A stretch of 64,000 bases of DNA from Flavobacterium turcicum (lineage in GTDB: Bacteria > Bacteroidota > Bacteroidia > Flavobacteriales > Flavobacteriaceae). Every line of letters starts with the position of its first letter. The first letter of the stretch is position 1. Positions 39,513-45,943 of the stretch are shown here, one piece after another. Made by a program: the position numbers and the translations under genes. The stretch is taken from positions 372,001-436,000 of the forward strand of contig NZ_JAAOBY010000001.1 of NCBI RefSeq assembly GCF_011365745.1, given 5' to 3'. The notes below the pieces were generated by a model. That model worked only from the letters and a program-made list of their open reading frames with translations, ran no database searches and was not told the origin of the DNA.

Positions 39513-40322
39513 ATGAGTTATTCGTACATTATTATTGATGATCATCACGAATGTGTTTTGGAAACGAAAGCTGCGCTTTCTCGTTTTCCAGAATTAAATT
39601 TTATAGCTGCTGCAAATAATTATGATGAAGGGTTAAATTGTATTTTAGAACACCAACCTGATCTTGTTTTTCTTGAAATTGATCCAGCCAGTAAAAAAAG
39701 TAATTTATCATTACAACTAATAAATGAGCTGCATCGGTATCTAAAAGTTATTCCGAAAATTATAATTACTACCAGAACCAAAAACTTTGCTTTTGATGCT
39801 ATTAAGTTCGAAGTAGCTGATTATCTTATTAAGCCAGTTCAGCATATTGATTTGGTGAAATTGATTTTGAAATTGAATAAATCAATTTTGGAAACGCCTA
39901 CCTGTATTGAAAAAGCGCTACCGAGGCAAGATATAATTACAATCAATAAAGAGGCACAAACCCCATCTGATCAGCCATTAATTTTATGCATCAAATCATA
40001 CGGTGATTACAGGTACATAGATACCAATGATATTTGTTACCTAAAAGCAGATAACAACTCAACGGATATACACCTTAACACGGGCGAAATGATTACGGCT
40101 TTCAAAACCTTAAAACATTTTGAAGCTGCGCTCAATAGTCCATTTATTAGAATTCATAATAGCTATATCATTAACCGAAATTATATTGTACGAATCCATA
40201 CTGGTAATGCGCTTTGCTACATTAAAAATAGTGCGGTTAAACTTCCTTTTTCAAAGTCTTACAAGTCTAATATTGATACAATTATCAATGATTTCTCAGA
40301 TGGAAATTATTTAGAAATATAA
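39513..40322 (+). CDS. LytTR-type response regulator with Glu in place of the phospho-acceptor Asp
   Basis: A DNA-binding regulator of 269 residues from MSYSYIIIDDHHE. The receiver domain (about 1-120) keeps the acidic pair IIIDDHH and the Lys in VADYLIKPVQ, but the phospho-acceptor position in PDLVFLEIDP is Glu55 rather than Asp. The C-terminal LytTR domain (160-265) includes CIKSYGDYRYIDTNDICYLKA and FIRIHNSYIINRNYIVRI. A Glu there often mimics the phosphorylated state, so it may be locked on (inference). It precedes the small exported-peptide gene and the histidine kinase. Confidence 0.88.
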   Translation: MSYSYIIIDDHHECVLETKAALSRFPELNFIAAANNYDEGLNCILEHQPDLVFLEIDPASKKSNLSLQLINELHRYLKVIPKIIITTRTKNFAFDAIKFEVADYLIKPVQHIDLVKLILKLNKSILETPTCIEKALPRQDIITINKEAQTPSDQPLILCIKSYGDYRYIDTNDICYLKADNNSTDIHLNTGEMITAFKTLKHFEAALNSPFIRIHNSYIINRNYIVRIHTGNALCYIKNSAVKLPFSKSYKSNIDTIINDFSDGNYLEI

Positions 40323-40501
40323 AAAACATCCATTTACCATAATTTGAGCATCATTCACTTTCATTTGGTGGCAATCTACCATATAGCGTGTTTTTACGGG
40401 CAAAAAGTAAAGTTGTCTGCTTAGTTTTACAAAAGAATCAACAAATAAATGGTTCTAAAACAAATAAAAAAAACTAACAAAAACATAAAAAACCCAAGGT
40501 T
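40323..40501 (+). promoter_or_regulatory. Leader region of the small exported-peptide gene
   Basis: 179 nt between the LytTR regulator and the peptide gene. It contains TAGTTTTA (one mismatch to TAnnTTTG) about 60 nt ahead of the peptide ATG and an A-rich stretch just before it. The leader is long for a 60-codon gene and could hold a LytTR binding site; I see no clear direct-repeat pair that proves it. Confidence 0.35.
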
Positions 40502-40684
40502 ATGAAAAAAGCACTTTTAGTATCAGGATTATTTTCTTTAGTAATGGTTTTAACTTCTTTTACTTCTAACGCAGAGGTTGCTAATGCATCGAATGACAAC
40601 AAAGTTGAGATTCTTAAAGTTGACAACATGACATTAGATATTTCAGGAAATGGTGGAACTGGTGGAAATAAGAAAATGGACTAA
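40502..40684 (+). CDS. Small exported peptide precursor, unknown
   Basis: Encodes 60 residues: a clear signal peptide (KKALLVSGLFSLVMVLTSF, cut near TSNA|EV) and a mature part of about 36 residues ending in a Gly/Asn-rich tail, SGNGGTGGNKKMD. No Cys and no lipobox are present. The strong terminator directly after it means it is probably a separate short transcript. It lies between a LytTR regulator and a histidine kinase with a periplasmic TPR region, which suggests a secreted signal or a small envelope sensor partner; that role is inference. I do not recognise the family. Confidence 0.7.
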   Translation: MKKALLVSGLFSLVMVLTSFTSNAEVANASNDNKVEILKVDNMTLDISGNGGTGGNKKMD

Positions 40685-40711
40685 TAATTAATAGTTTCTG
40701 TTAAGATAAAG

Positions 40712-40743
40712 AAAAAGCCGTCAAGTATTTGACGGCTTTTTCT
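40712..40743 (+). terminator. Terminator after the small peptide gene
   Basis: Stem AAAAAGCCGTCAA/TTGACGGCTTTTT with a 4-nt loop, so the peptide gene is set apart from the kinase gene 50 nt later. Confidence 0.9.
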
Positions 40744-40791
40744 TTGTTGAGAAGTTTATTTTTTTATTTTTGATAATAAATATTTTTCCAT

Positions 40792-42816
40792 TTGAAACAG
40801 ACACTAAACAAAACTATTTTTTTGATAATGCTATTAAGCTCATGTGATCAAAAAAATCAAGAATTTCATTATACTACAAATTCCAGTGATAGTCTCAATT
40901 CTTATCTGTCTCTTGCAAACGATTTTGATTTAGCATATGAACAACGACAGAGATATATCAAGAAAGCTTTCAAGATTGTATCGACCCAAGAAAATGATTC
41001 CATATATCGCGTAAATCTTTTCAAAATTGCTAATCGTTATTATAATGTTGAAAATTGGAGAGCATATAAAAGCACTGTTGAATTAATTCTGGAAAAATCC
41101 GAATTAAAGAATGATGCTATTAGCATGGCAAAAGCAAATAATTATTTAGGAGATTACTTTGATTCTCAAGGGAAACCAGATAGTTCTTTTTTCTTTTACA
41201 ACAAAGCACAAAAAATGTATTTGCAATTAAATGATAATTATAATTTAGCAGTAACAATTATAAAAAAAGCTAATATCCAATTTTATCAAAGTGATTTTCT
41301 AGGTTCGGAGAAATCGACATCTAAAGCATTAAAGATTAAACAAAATAGGTATCATAGTGATGTAATGTACGACGCATACAATTTATTAGGGTTAATTTAT
41401 AATGAATTAGAAGACTATGATAATGCAATGGTCTATCATAATAAAGCACTTGCAAGTATAGATGGTGAGTTGATGTCATCATTTTATCAACCAGAAGCTA
41501 CTTCGTACAACAACATTGGATATTTATATTTGAAGAGAGAAAAATATAAACAGGCTAAAGATTATTTCCTAAAAGGTTTAAACCAAAAAAATATTTCAAG
41601 TGACAAGCCATATATTTACGCAATGTTATTAAACAATTTGGCCTATTCAAAATTCAAACTTAAAGAAAAAGCACAGCTACCTGATTTGTTTTTTCAATCC
41701 TTAAAAATTAGAGATAGCTTGAAACTAACTAGTGGAGTAATAGCTAGTAAAATTAATTTGTCAGAGTATTTTATTTCAAAAAAAGATACAACTTTGGCTA
41801 GTTTGTACGCCAAACAAGCATTGGTATTGTCGCAAAAAACTAATAATTATCGAAACATTCTAAACTCTTTGAAACATTTGTCTCTAATTGATCCTAAAAA
41901 TGCAATTCAATATGCCAATGAATATATTAAGGTAAGCGAACAACTTCAAAAATCAGAACGCAAAATGGGTAATAAATTTACCCGCATCGAATACGAAACT
42001 GACGAGATTAAAAGTGAAAACAATGAACTAGCGCAGCAAAATAGAAATTTAGTATATCTTTTTTCAGGACTTGGTATTTTAGGATTGTTAATTTTTAAAA
42101 TTAAATCTCAAAAAGCAAAAAACAGAGAGCTGTTATTTAAACAACAGCAACAAATAGCAAATGAGGAGATTTATAATTTAATGATTTCGCAACAAAATAC
42201 TATTGAAATTAGTAGAGTTGAGGAGAAAAAGAGAGTTGCGCGCGAATTGCATGATGGGGTACTGGGCAGAATGTTTGGCGTACGTATGAATCTGGATGGT
42301 TTGAATAAGCAGCAAGACGAATCAGCTATGTTGCAAAGAATCAATTATTTAGCTGAATTGAAAAATATTGAGCAGGACATCCGTGAAATTTCACATGATT
42401 TGAATAGGGAAAAATCAGAATTAATTAATAACTTCGTTGCAATAGTTAATAATTTATTTGAAGAACAGAAGAAAACCTATAAGTCAAAATTTATAGTAAA
42501 TATTGATGCTACTATTCGTTGGGAGTTGGTTAGTAATGCTGTAAAAATTAATTTGTACCGTATAATTCAAGAAATTTTGCAAAATACGAATAAATACGCC
42601 GAGGCTTTAAAGATTAATGTCGATCTGAAGAAAGAAGAAGATCATCTGATATTGAAAATATCAGATGACGGCAAGGGTTTCAATGTGAAAACAGCTAAGA
42701 AAGGAATAGGTTTGCAAAATATCTTGTTCCGAACTAACGAGTGTGAGGGTGTTGTCGATATTAAATCAGCAAAATTGCAAGGGACTACTGTTACGGTTAC
42801 TTTGCCAATTGCTTAA
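40792..42816 (+). CDS. TPR-sensor histidine kinase with lipoprotein signal, TTG start
   Basis: A 674-residue sensor kinase. The TTG start gives a lipoprotein-type signal IFLIMLLSSC (Cys18); the next Met would destroy it. About 380 residues of tetratricopeptide repeats follow (AYNLLGLIYNELEDYDNAMVYH, YNNIGYLYLKREKYKQAKDY), then one membrane span near 420-437. The cytoplasmic part has a HisKA_3 helix with His487 in RVARELHDGVLGRMFG and a HATPase domain (QEILQNTNKYAE, DDGKGFNV, KKGIGLQNI). The TPRs would therefore be in the periplasm and may bind a protein or peptide. A NarL-type regulator follows 17 nt downstream. Confidence 0.9.
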   Translation: MKQTLNKTIFLIMLLSSCDQKNQEFHYTTNSSDSLNSYLSLANDFDLAYEQRQRYIKKAFKIVSTQENDSIYRVNLFKIANRYYNVENWRAYKSTVELILEKSELKNDAISMAKANNYLGDYFDSQGKPDSSFFFYNKAQKMYLQLNDNYNLAVTIIKKANIQFYQSDFLGSEKSTSKALKIKQNRYHSDVMYDAYNLLGLIYNELEDYDNAMVYHNKALASIDGELMSSFYQPEATSYNNIGYLYLKREKYKQAKDYFLKGLNQKNISSDKPYIYAMLLNNLAYSKFKLKEKAQLPDLFFQSLKIRDSLKLTSGVIASKINLSEYFISKKDTTLASLYAKQALVLSQKTNNYRNILNSLKHLSLIDPKNAIQYANEYIKVSEQLQKSERKMGNKFTRIEYETDEIKSENNELAQQNRNLVYLFSGLGILGLLIFKIKSQKAKNRELLFKQQQQIANEEIYNLMISQQNTIEISRVEEKKRVARELHDGVLGRMFGVRMNLDGLNKQQDESAMLQRINYLAELKNIEQDIREISHDLNREKSELINNFVAIVNNLFEEQKKTYKSKFIVNIDATIRWELVSNAVKINLYRIIQEILQNTNKYAEALKINVDLKKEEDHLILKISDDGKGFNVKTAKKGIGLQNILFRTNECEGVVDIKSAKLQGTTVTVTLPIA

Positions 42817-42833
42817 ATACAATAAAAACAAGA

Positions 42834-43535
42834 ATGGGAAGCGAGATTGAATCGGTTGAAAAACAAAAGAAAATACAAAACATATTAATAGTTGATGATC
42901 ATCGTTTTATAATTGAAGGTTATAAAAATGCTATAACACGTTACAATCCAAACGAATACGATTTTTTAATTACTCAAGCTAAAGATTGTGAATCCGCATA
43001 CGAAATTATAACAAACCCAGACAGTCCTGTTTTTGATATTGCTTTTTTAGATATTAGTATGCCTGCATTTGAGGAAAAACAAATCTACTCAGGCGAGGAT
43101 GTGGCCAAATTAATCTTGGATACGATGCCAGATTGTAAAATAATTTTGTTGACCATGTACACGGAATTATTAAAAATAAAAACGATTATTAATACAATCA
43201 ATCCTGCTGGACTGGTTATCAAAAATGATTTGACATTTGATGAATTAATTTTTGCTTTTGATAAAATTATAAACAACAATAATTACTACAGTGAATCAGT
43301 TGTTAAAATGCTTAACTTAGCAGAGGTTGATGCTATTGAAATTGATCAATTTGACGAACAAATTTTATTTCATCTTTCAAAAGGCACAAGTATTACAAAC
43401 ATGGTGCAATATATTCCGATATCGGTGGGGGCTATTGAGCGTCGTATTGTAAACTTAAAAGAGCTTTTACGTGTTGAATACAACGACTACAGCGCCTTAG
43501 TCGTAGAAGCTAAAAACAAAGGATTATTATTTTAA
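42834..43535 (+). CDS. NarL/FixJ-like response regulator
   Basis: A 233-residue regulator. The receiver has ILIVDDHRF, phospho-acceptor Asp in IAFLDISMP and the conserved Lys in LVIKNDLTFDEL, so it should be phosphorylated normally. The C-terminal region (about 178-225) is a helix-turn-helix (ILFHLSKGTSITNMVQYIPISVGAIERRI) resembling LuxR-type DNA-binding domains, though less regular than usual. It is 17 nt after the TPR kinase, whose HisKA_3 type normally pairs with this class, so the two form a two-component system. The operon ends at a bidirectional hairpin. Confidence 0.87.
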   Translation: MGSEIESVEKQKKIQNILIVDDHRFIIEGYKNAITRYNPNEYDFLITQAKDCESAYEIITNPDSPVFDIAFLDISMPAFEEKQIYSGEDVAKLILDTMPDCKIILLTMYTELLKIKTIINTINPAGLVIKNDLTFDELIFAFDKIINNNNYYSESVVKMLNLAEVDAIEIDQFDEQILFHLSKGTSITNMVQYIPISVGAIERRIVNLKELLRVEYNDYSALVVEAKNKGLLF

Positions 43536-43580: not shown

Positions 43581-44624
43581 TTAACTAATAGCATCCCAAC
43601 CACGCGCTTTTAGTGGGATTTTAGTATTCGCTCTTGTAATTAAATGAATTCCTTCACTTTCTTGGGTCATGTGACCGATGATAGTAAAATTTGGATTGGC
43701 TTTTATTTTCTCAAAATCTTGAATCGAGATTGTAAATAGCAATTCGTAATCTTCACCTCCGTTAATGGCAACAGTGGTGCTATCAATATTAAACTCTTCG
43801 CAAACATTGATAAACTGCGGATCAATAGGTAATTTGTCTTCGTATAAATTACAACCTACTTTTGACTGTTTACAAATGTGCATAATCTCAGAGGAAAGTC
43901 CGTCTGAAATATCAATCATAGCCGTAGGTTTTACTTCAAGTGCATGCAGTAATGTACGAACATCTTTGCGTGCTTCAGGCTTTAATTGACGTTCAATAAG
44001 ATAAGTATAAGCGTCTAAATCAGGTTGTGAATTTGGGTTCACTTGAAAAACTTGTTTCTCACGTTCCAAAACTTGTAATCCCATGTAGGCAGCACCGATA
44101 TCTCCAGTAACTACCAGCAAATCGGTTTCTTTGGCCCCATTACGATATACAATTTCATCTTCGTTTGCTTCTCCGATGGCAGTAATGCTAATTATTAATC
44201 CTTTTTGAGATGATGTGGTGTCACCGCCAATTACATCAATATTGTATTCAGCTGCGGCATGTGTAATACCAGCAAACAACTCTTCTAAAGCTTCTAGTGG
44301 AAATCGGTTAGAAACGGCAACCGAAACAGTGATTTGTGTTGCCTTGGCATTCATAGCGCAAATATCCGAAACATTGACTACAACAGCTTTATATCCCAAA
44401 TGTTTTAAGGGCATGTAAGCCAAATCAAAATGTACGCCTTCAATCAATAAATCGGTTGAAACAACAATTTTTTTGTCCTTGAAGTCTAAAACAGCTGCAT
44501 CATCTCCAATCCCTTTTAAGGTAGATGATTGGTTGATTGCAAAATTTTTAGTCAAATGATCAATTAGTCCAAATTCTCCTAATTGAGCTATACTTGTACG
44601 TTGTGGATTTTTATCTTCTATCAT
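43581..44624 (-). CDS. thiL: Thiamine-monophosphate kinase
   Basis: Phosphorylates thiamine monophosphate to thiamine pyrophosphate. The protein has 347 residues from MIEDKNPQRTSIAQ; a longer frame of 16 residues would run through the promoter and is rejected. Family marks are GIGDDAAVLDFKDKKIVVSTDLLIEGVHF and the following KAVVVNVSDICAMNAKA (metal and ATP binding), and GGEDYELLFTIS toward the end. The -7 box sits so close to the ATG that the mRNA may be leaderless. No thiamine riboswitch is seen, as the leader is too short. Confidence 0.95.
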   Translation of the reverse strand: MIEDKNPQRTSIAQLGEFGLIDHLTKNFAINQSSTLKGIGDDAAVLDFKDKKIVVSTDLLIEGVHFDLAYMPLKHLGYKAVVVNVSDICAMNAKATQITVSVAVSNRFPLEALEELFAGITHAAAEYNIDVIGGDTTSSQKGLIISITAIGEANEDEIVYRNGAKETDLLVVTGDIGAAYMGLQVLEREKQVFQVNPNSQPDLDAYTYLIERQLKPEARKDVRTLLHALEVKPTAMIDISDGLSSEIMHICKQSKVGCNLYEDKLPIDPQFINVCEEFNIDSTTVAINGGEDYELLFTISIQDFEKIKANPNFTIIGHMTQESEGIHLITRANTKIPLKARGWDAIS

Positions 44625-44628
44625 TTTG

Positions 44629-44636
44629 CAAAGGTA
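44629..44636 (-). promoter_or_regulatory. -7 promoter box for thiL, implying a leaderless mRNA
   Basis: On the minus strand TACCTTTG is followed by CAAA and then the ATG at 44624. With the usual 4-7 nt spacing, transcription would start at or next to the A of the ATG. Confidence 0.55.
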
Positions 44637-44647
44637 CAAAGTTTTCT

Positions 44648-45025
44648 TGCCACAGATTACACAGATTACCACAGATTTTTTCGCATCTTAAGGATTGTAA
44701 AACATCTTTCATGAAAACTCGTAACTCTTACTATACATCCATATTTAGATAATTTACCACAGATTACACAGATTACCACAGATTTTTTCGTTACTTGATG
44801 ATTGTAAAACATCTTACATGAAAACAATCGCAACTCTTACTATACATCCATCTTTAGATAATTTGCCACAGATTACACAGATTTTTTCGTTACTTGATGA
44901 TTGTAAAACATCTTACATGAAAACAATCGTAACTCTTACTATTCATCCATCTTTATATAATTTGCCACAGATTAGACAGATTACCACAGATTTTTTCGCA
45001 TCTTTATGATTGTAAAATATCTTTC
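44648..45025 (+). repeat. Tandem array that copies the start of the downstream kinase gene
   Basis: Three full units, 44711-44817 (107 bp), 44818-44916 (99 bp) and 44917-45025 (109 bp), plus a partial unit from 44648. Each begins with ATGAAAAC and codes for M-K-T-(I)-x-x-L-T-I-x-P-S-L in units 2 and 3, like the true gene start at 45026. Each then carries CCACAGATTACACAGATT-type sequence, TTTTTTCG, and GATTGTAAAA(C/T)ATCTT(T/A)C just before the next ATG. Unit 2 lacks a 10-bp attaccacag segment. One open frame (44818-45009) arises purely from units 2-3 and is not called as a gene. Confidence 0.88.
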
Positions 45026-45943
45026 ATGAAAACAATCACAACGCTAACCATAAATCCTTCCTTAGATAAATCAACTCATTTTACGGGACTTATCGCTGAG
45101 CAAAAAATTAGATGTGGAAAACCGCGTTATGATGCTGGTGGTGGCGGTATAAATGTATCTAAAGCCATTGCAAAATTAGGAGGTACGTCCAAATGTATTT
45201 TTACTTCTGGTGGTTCTTCTGGCGAATTGCTCGAAGAATTAATTAAAAAAGAAGGTTTGCAATCTGAAATGATAAGAACTAAAAGTTGGACAAGAGAAAA
45301 TTTTATTGCTTTTGATTCTGAAACACAATCGCAGTACCGTTTTGGTTTTCCAGGAAATGAGTTGTCTCTAGCTGAACAAGATGAAATTTTGCATAAAGTA
45401 AAAGATTTAAAAACAGATTATCTTGTCATCAGCGGAAGCTTAAATGAAGGATTAGCAACTGATTTTTACAAACAAATAGCCCAAATAGCCCAAGCTTCTA
45501 ACATCAAGGTTATTGTTGATACATCTGGTGAACCGCTGAAAAAAGTCTTAGAAACAGGAGTTTATCTAATTAAACCCAACATTGGCGAATTAGCAAAATT
45601 AATTGGTACCGAACGATTAGAATTACCAGAGGTTGAAAAAGCGGCCAAAAAATTAATTGAAAATAAAAGTGCAGAAATTATAGTAGTTTCACTGGGAGCT
45701 GATGGAGCCATTTTAGTCACTCAAGACGAAACTCATTTTGTTAAAGCGCCAAAAGTAGAAAAGAAAAGTACCGTAGGAGCTGGCGACAGTATGGTGGGTG
45801 GTATGGTGTGGGCATTGTCTCAAAACAAAACTTTAAAAGAAGTGATACAAATTGGAGTTGCTTGTGGTTCTGCAGCAACTATGAACGAAGGAACTCAACT
45901 TTTTAAAGTAGAAGATGTTATGCGATTGTTAAATGAAATCTAA
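45026..45943 (+). CDS. 1-phosphofructokinase-type hexose kinase
   Basis: A PfkB-fold kinase of 305 residues, of the FruK/LacC/PfkB-2 branch. DAGGGGINVSKAIAKLGG is the substrate-binding Gly block, and the catalytic VGAGDSMVGGMVWAL near residues 250-264 holds the base Asp. The substrate could be fructose-1-phosphate, fructose-6-phosphate or tagatose-6-phosphate; sequence does not decide, though the minor PfkB-type 6-phosphofructokinase is likely in Bacteroidota. Its upstream region is the tandem array of start-codon copies, so translation of decoy frames may affect it. Ends at a bidirectional terminator. Confidence 0.88.
   Translation: MKTITTLTINPSLDKSTHFTGLIAEQKIRCGKPRYDAGGGGINVSKAIAKLGGTSKCIFTSGGSSGELLEELIKKEGLQSEMIRTKSWTRENFIAFDSETQSQYRFGFPGNELSLAEQDEILHKVKDLKTDYLVISGSLNEGLATDFYKQIAQIAQASNIKVIVDTSGEPLKKVLETGVYLIKPNIGELAKLIGTERLELPEVEKAAKKLIENKSAEIIVVSLGADGAILVTQDETHFVKAPKVEKKSTVGAGDSMVGGMVWALSQNKTLKEVIQIGVACGSAATMNEGTQLFKVEDVMRLLNEI

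Follow-up and report, generated by a model that had tools for sequence, protein, structure and literature searches.

In Firmicutes, the Agr and ComQXPA systems encode a propeptide, a sensor kinase and a regulator in a row, carry a variable block of peptide plus sensor, and form communication groups with distinct signals. The gene order and pherotypes of ComQXPA are described in excerpts of PMC4008528 and PMC4408185. Here these and other systems are compared with a locus of Flavobacterium turcicum that lies within the 64,000-nucleotide stretch of DNA that was analysed (the window). The locus contains genes for a LytTR response regulator, a small exported peptide, a membrane histidine kinase with a TPR sensor, and a second response regulator. 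We put the probability at about 0.7 that it is a peptide-signalling two-component system in which the C-terminal unit of the peptide precursor is the ligand of the TPR kinase.

As in ComQXPA and Agr, an exported propeptide gene adjoins kinase and regulator genes on one strand. The putative mature peptide and the sensor are jointly hypervariable while the catalytic part of the kinase is conserved, a pattern that is partly confounded by linkage and shared history. Unlike the Firmicutes systems, the genes in the window have no ComQ- or AgrB-like maturation gene beside them, and a Sec-type precursor, multi-copy units and a TPR sensor are combined in Gram-negative Bacteroidota. Precursors with several units are familiar from pheromones of the yeast alpha-factor type, in which each exported precursor holds several identical units that vary between species; the proteins and the receptor are unrelated to those studied here.

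The RRNPPA systems (Rap-Phr, NprR, PlcR, AimR) also pair a TPR solenoid with an exported precursor encoded beside its receptor, and in some of them a single precursor can contain the mature peptide as many as six times (excerpt of PMC9765709). The structural model of the sensor described below resembles Phr-bound Rap. However, RRNPPA receptors are cytoplasmic proteins with a helix-turn-helix or Rap domain that meet a re-imported peptide, whereas the TPR domain here is fused to a membrane kinase, and repeated units occur in 86 of the 162 distinct peptide genes compared. The window gene carries one unit.

Within Bacteroidota, the FimS-FimR system of Porphyromonas gingivalis likewise has a histidine kinase with a periplasmic TPR sensor, and there is a weak NCBIfam match (0.0029) in the TPR part. 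PMC11053733 describes the signal of FimS as unknown and proposes a polypeptide as its ligand. A streptococcal ArcA-derived peptide acts on P. gingivalis independently of FimS/FimR, according to an excerpt of PMC5431200. Literature searches aimed at a peptide signal of Bacteroidota or Flavobacterium, which covered listings and the first lines of abstracts of open-licence PMC papers, returned no description of a peptide pheromone system of Bacteroidota.

Organization of the locus

The four genes lie on the + strand and stand alone in the window between neighbours that we take, from their translations, to be glyS-like and thiL-like. No exporter, modifying enzyme or ComQ/AgrB-like maturation enzyme is encoded between these flanking genes.

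39513..40322, + strand: LytTR response-regulator gene (Response_reg 1.8e-8, LytTR 1.4e-17)
40502..40684, + strand: peptide precursor gene of 60 codons, with a Sec-type signal covering roughly the first 22 residues (seen by eye and with a crude pattern)
40640..40681, + strand: predicted signal unit ISGNGGTGGNKKMD, one copy in the window (comparison with relatives)
40710..40744, + strand: terminator hairpin separating the peptide gene from the kinase gene (folding)
40792..42816, + strand: membrane histidine kinase with N-terminal TPR sensor (TPR_12 2.4e-12, HisKA_3 4.6e-7, HATPase_c 1.4e-9)
40882..41889, + strand: TPR solenoid, residues 31-366, hypervariable, predicted receptor domain (AlphaFold2 model, divergence profile)
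42223..42813, + strand: HisKA_3/HATPase core, residues 478-674, with phospho-His H487 in ELHDG
42834..43535, + strand: response regulator, probably the output regulator, with the receiver Asp in FLDISMP (Response_reg 9.3e-9)

A first-pass annotation of this DNA had described a LytTR gene, a 60-codon exported peptide gene, a TPR kinase gene and a regulator gene in a row on one strand, and had given the peptide gene a terminator of its own. Both descriptions hold. The 60 nucleotides 3' of the peptide open reading frame (ORF) in the window fold at -25.0 kcal/mol, and 135 of 172 loci reach -8 kcal/mol or lower in the 55 nucleotides 3' of this ORF. Two further labels hold in part. The kinase, whose first in-frame start is TTG, had been assigned a lipoprotein signal. 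A lipobox-like LSSC is visible by eye at its N-terminus, but a strict lipobox pattern matches just 56 of 181 kinases, and lipidation across the family is not certain. The last gene does encode a receiver regulator, but the protein is only weakly similar to the NarL/LuxR type to which it had been assigned (DUF5932 match 0.0026, below the family cut-off).

Conservation of the peptide gene beside the kinase

The peptide gene remains next to the kinase gene in related genomes. Among the best 80 of 283 kinase relatives, an exported small ORF lies upstream of the kinase or kinase array in all 72 loci with enough upstream DNA. A script located 70 of these, and two were added manually: L068, which falls outside the script rule for its start codon, and L062, where a second kinase intervenes and the peptide ORF precedes a two-kinase array. 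Usable upstream DNA was lacking at L046, L055, L065, L067, L072, L073 and L092, and L100, at a contig end, has a truncated repeat ORF with about eight copies of a different repeat. A homologue of the receiver regulator adjoins the kinase in 78 of the 80 loci.

Further sets of loci give the same picture. A small ORF with a signal peptide is located at most 400 bp upstream of the kinase in 100 of 100 additional Flavobacterium loci, which were hand-selected from a search of 199 Flavobacterium genomes and overlap partly in species with the first set. Peptide genes at L217, L228 and L218 were re-picked, two of the 100 by hand. Another 39 of 39 loci (29 at the family level and 10 more from Flavobacterium) also have a small exported ORF, and the linkage extends beyond Flavobacterium to further genera of the family, whose kinases are 32-40% identical. 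When a common rule is applied to genes from the best-80 loci, with a signal-peptide ORF ending at most 260 bp upstream, 69 of 79 kinase-like ORFs (paralogues included) have such a neighbour versus 17 of 279 other long genes. The first-pass annotation had made its proposal depend in advance on this persistence beside the kinase.

The peptide matches no Pfam or NCBIfam family. It appears to go with this kinase subfamily, because no such small peptide ORF was found beside three other kinases encoded in the window genome with similarity across the TPR part (25-29% identity). A chance ORF was rejected on the basis of the linkage and of the synonymous pattern described below. An attenuation leader peptide was also rejected, since it would leave the signal peptide, the C-terminal repeats and the species-specific amino acids unexplained.

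Repeated C-terminal units

Peptide genes from the best-80 set, the 100 Flavobacterium loci and the window number 172, and 162 of them are distinct at the DNA level. Counts of repeats and of co-divergence leave out the 39-locus set, L062 and L100. In the 86 genes whose C-terminal part is repeated, the period is usually 13-16 residues (56 genes) and the copy number 3-5 (62 genes), with many relatives carrying 2-7 copies. For example, L035 has four copies of LVGGGSAGGNKKVD. Adjacent copies show a proportion of synonymous differences (pS) of 0.298 and a proportion of nonsynonymous differences (pN) of 0.012, and the ratio of nonsynonymous to synonymous substitution rates (dN/dS) is 0.03. There is no nonsynonymous difference in 51 of the 86 repeat genes, and pN exceeds pS in none. 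Detection of repeats at the amino-acid level biases pN downward, though hardly as far as 1%. The unit sequence varies between species. The nearly exclusive occurrence of synonymous differences between copies therefore indicates that each species keeps its copies alike, even as the unit changes from one species to the next.

Two arrangements point to the C-terminal unit as a product. Identical units are separated by unrelated spacers in L137, L190 and L200, and five tandem lipopeptide genes upstream of the L268 kinase all end in TDPIIIPKKD. Repeats are also found in L100 and in the lipopeptide of another genus (L147), and a lipobox pattern is present in 20 of the 162 precursors. The single-unit form ISGNGGTGGNKKMD is common to the window, L032, L033, L034 and L074. 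L032 is Flavobacterium erciyesense, the nearest named relative, whose kinase is 98% identical; its peptide gene differs from that of the window by two synonymous and two amino-acid changes that leave the last 14 codons unaffected. Processing probably yields a mature C-terminal unit of about 9-15 residues. In the window, comparison with relatives favours the last 14 residues (40640-40681) over the mature part of about 36 residues that had been proposed at first.

Joint divergence of peptide and sensor

Peptides and TPR domains diverge together. Sister pairs were formed by greedy pairing on catalytic identity, with no tree and with each locus used once. Over 46 such pairs, the Spearman correlation is 0.74 between peptide and TPR distances, 0.30 between peptide and catalytic distances, and 0.32 between signal-peptide and TPR distances. 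With catalytic and signal-peptide distances held, the partial correlation of peptide and TPR is 0.71 (p 0.0001), and that of the signal peptide is -0.02. A partial Mantel test over 162 genes that holds the catalytic part gives r 0.43 (p 0.001) for peptide and TPR, and no significant effect for signal peptide and TPR (r 0.07, p 0.10). When LytTR and the regulator are added as covariates, the peptide-TPR value is 0.37 (n=45).

The divergence is localized within both proteins. In 28 pairs whose catalytic parts are at least 90% identical, 30-residue windows along the kinase are 64-73% identical at residues 30-359, 81% at 360-389, and 88-99% from residue 390 onward. The signal peptides of these pairs are 94% identical and the last 15 peptide residues 65%; where they could be compared, the LytTR proteins are 86% (12 pairs) and the regulators 88% (11 pairs) identical. 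In the extreme pair, L220/L224, the signal peptide is 100% identical, the last 15 residues 40%, the TPR domain 63% and the catalytic part 97%. Multi-copy identical units and co-divergence of peptide and TPR domain are as expected of a ligand and its receptor, and with the linkage they lend support to the initial proposal that the peptide may be a signal read by the TPR domain.

Predicted structure of the TPR sensor

The AlphaFold2 model (45 kinases) has a TPR solenoid at residues 31-366, from which a long helix leads via a hydrophobic segment into the kinase. A hydrophobic helix between the TPR and HisKA_3/HATPase parts can also be seen by eye. The mean predicted local distance difference test score (pLDDT) is 83 and the predicted template modelling score 0.56, with ten-residue blocks of the TPR part mostly above 85 pLDDT. 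Foldseek searches with the model return LGN TPR-peptide complexes, Rap-Phr and the kinases DesK and VraS. The matches to Rap structures (E 2e-9 to 2e-8) may reflect generic TPR similarity.

Proposed mechanism and alternative explanations

In the proposed mechanism, the small gene would give rise to a Sec-exported propeptide, from which a C-terminal unit of about 9-15 residues, ISGNGGTGGNKKMD in the window, may be freed by proteolysis in or beyond the periplasm. The neighbouring HisKA_3 kinase would bind this unit through its periplasmic TPR domain. Judging from gene order and protein families, binding would alter phosphorylation of the downstream response regulator. Where a propeptide holds several identical units, as in many Flavobacterium, the yield per transcript would be higher. 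The motif and its co-occurrence with LytTR suggest that this protein, probably independently of phosphorylation, may control the peptide promoter through boxes phased at 21 bp and set the peptide dose. Joint diversification of peptide and TPR domain could then create private signals of related species.

It appears reasonably likely that such loci constitute a peptide pheromone system of a Bacteroidota family, with multi-copy propeptides, periplasmic TPR kinases, and peptide-receptor blocks that diversify into species-private signals. The module could be a principal route of signalling in the Flavobacteriaceae, an abundant family, and the 162 distinct peptide genes would provide more than 150 natural peptide-kinase pairs for tests of specificity. 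If the mechanism is true, cognate peptides may also be what is read by other Bacteroidota TPR kinases of unknown signal, FimS among them.

The peptide might instead act within the periplasm as a gauge and not as a signal between cells: the kinase would read how much precursor its own cell exports or cuts, and so follow secretion or protease stress. We regard this as unlikely. A Sec-type signal and a periplasmic TPR domain would suffice for a gauge, and the isolation of the four genes from any exporter or modifying enzyme in the window and the lipobox pattern in some precursors are compatible with it. However, a gauge needs neither species-private sequences nor a sensor that diverges along with them.

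Several observations weigh against a C-terminal unit that is bound by the TPR domain. The C-terminal part is not repeated in 76 of the 162 distinct genes, and in L268 the segment that follows the lipid Cys varies as little between the gene copies as the C-terminus does (9 of 10 positions conserved). Other parts of the precursor may therefore be functional besides the C-terminal unit. Structural modelling of peptide and TPR domain, of the kind suggested at the outset as a check, gave no support: in a natural read-through fusion of peptide, spacer and kinase (L041), AlphaFold2 left the peptide unplaced at pLDDT below 50. Nor are substitutions concentrated at the canonical concave positions that we take to line the groove, which are no more variable than other non-core positions (0.323 versus 0.341, five TPRs). 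In the 45-locus Mantel test, peptide-regulator (r 0.46), regulator-TPR (0.68) and LytTR-TPR (0.28) associations are all significant, and shared history therefore remains in this test. Mean synonymous divergence is also higher in the TPR part than in the catalytic part (0.63 versus 0.48). The TPR value is about twice the catalytic value in several pairs (for example, 0.74 versus 0.36 in L040/L041), which suggests exchange of blocks between lineages. Exchange of a linked block, without any binding, may explain part of the correlation.

Taken to its limit, this would mean that peptide and kinase have no functional link, and that the 3' end of the peptide gene and the 5' half of the kinase gene are one recombining and co-drifting block. 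The synonymous excess and the adjacency of the two regions favour such a block, but we consider it very improbable as a full account. The linkage is kept in other genera of the family. The signal peptide and the repeat copies are strongly conserved, and the gene must therefore be under selection beside this kinase. In L058/L233 and L063/L079, the TPR domain has diverged with no excess of pS; TPR pS is below catalytic pS in window/L032 (0.04 versus 0.18), L052/L095, L211/L213 and L063/L079. The least probable reading makes the peptide a bacteriocin-like or surface-active effector under control of a kinase that senses something else: antagonism also fits multi-copy secreted peptides that diverge fast, but it is the TPR domain, not the catalytic part, that keeps pace with this divergence, and the flanking genes in the window enclose no additional gene that might confer immunity.

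LytTR regulator and peptide promoter

The first-pass annotation had also proposed to check whether the peptide gene stays next to a LytTR gene and the kinase gene. The LytTR gene accompanies the others in Flavobacterium and in part of the relatives, but the 80 loci include Kordia, Olleya and others in which none was found next to the kinase. Overall, a LytTR homologue lies at most 2.5 kb upstream of the kinase in 45 of the 80 loci. The receiver of the window protein has Glu at the expected phospho-Asp place (FLEID), as do the Flavobacterium copies that were read, and this suggests that LytTR may act without phosphorylation. The corresponding residue is Asp in L082 and L084 and Asn in L085. Two elements precede the peptide gene in the window.

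40331..40381, + strand: three direct repeats of CATYYACYA in 21-bp steps (40331, 40352, 40373), candidate LytTR sites
40422..40430, + strand: TAGTTTTAC, conserved -7-like element with a putative promoter role

Boxes were counted if they had at least 8 of 9 matches to CATYYACYA, a motif derived from an alignment of the same data. A pair spaced by 20-22 bp is present in 76 of 113 LytTR-positive loci versus 0.2 expected from shuffles, and 88 box pairs are spaced by exactly 21 bp. Such a two-turn spacing fits LytTR binding. Box pairs also occur in 15 of 48 loci without a LytTR match. Of these, 13 come from a group of 23 Flavobacterium loci whose upstream DNA extends for only about 1 kb, so that the LytTR gene may lie outside, and the remaining 25 loci contribute two. 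An earlier box pattern in the wrong register (46 of 113 loci, 19.4 by shuffles) was replaced by CATYYACYA. The 7-mer TAGTTTT is found in 97 of 161 distinct peptide upstream regions.

Distribution and variant loci

At E 1e-90, 157 of 199 Flavobacterium genomes contain a relative of the kinase, and at E 1e-60 the same is true of 127 of 185 Flavobacteriaceae genera. A class-wide search at E 1e-40 found relatives in 13 of 296 genomes, 12 of which, including the window genome, are Flavobacteriaceae. In these samples of genomes, the subfamily hardly occurs outside this family. No convincing peptide was found at the sole match outside it (L274, 27% identity) or at a second, 32% identical kinase of a Flavobacteriaceae genome (L275). 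Four tandem TPR kinases of about 32% identity at L278 have no peptide ORF within the 10.5 kb examined.

Some loci have expanded arrangements. In one genome (L276 and L117), a glyS-like gene is followed by a LytTR gene, a single peptide gene and eight tandem TPR kinases, of which one is broken into two ORFs; only the last two kinases have regulators after them. The genome of L124 carries, in addition to the main module, a distant second module of LytTR, lipopeptide and TPR kinase. The regulator after the kinase is just 34-37% identical to the window regulator in L057-L061, L063, L064 and L079. In L120, a regulator of this type precedes a second kinase whose regulator is 62% identical; a kinase-regulator pair may have been added. 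Outside the module, short ORFs at 44583-45030 of the window echo the start of a downstream PfkB-like gene (MKTI.TLTI.PSL), which suggests small duplications.

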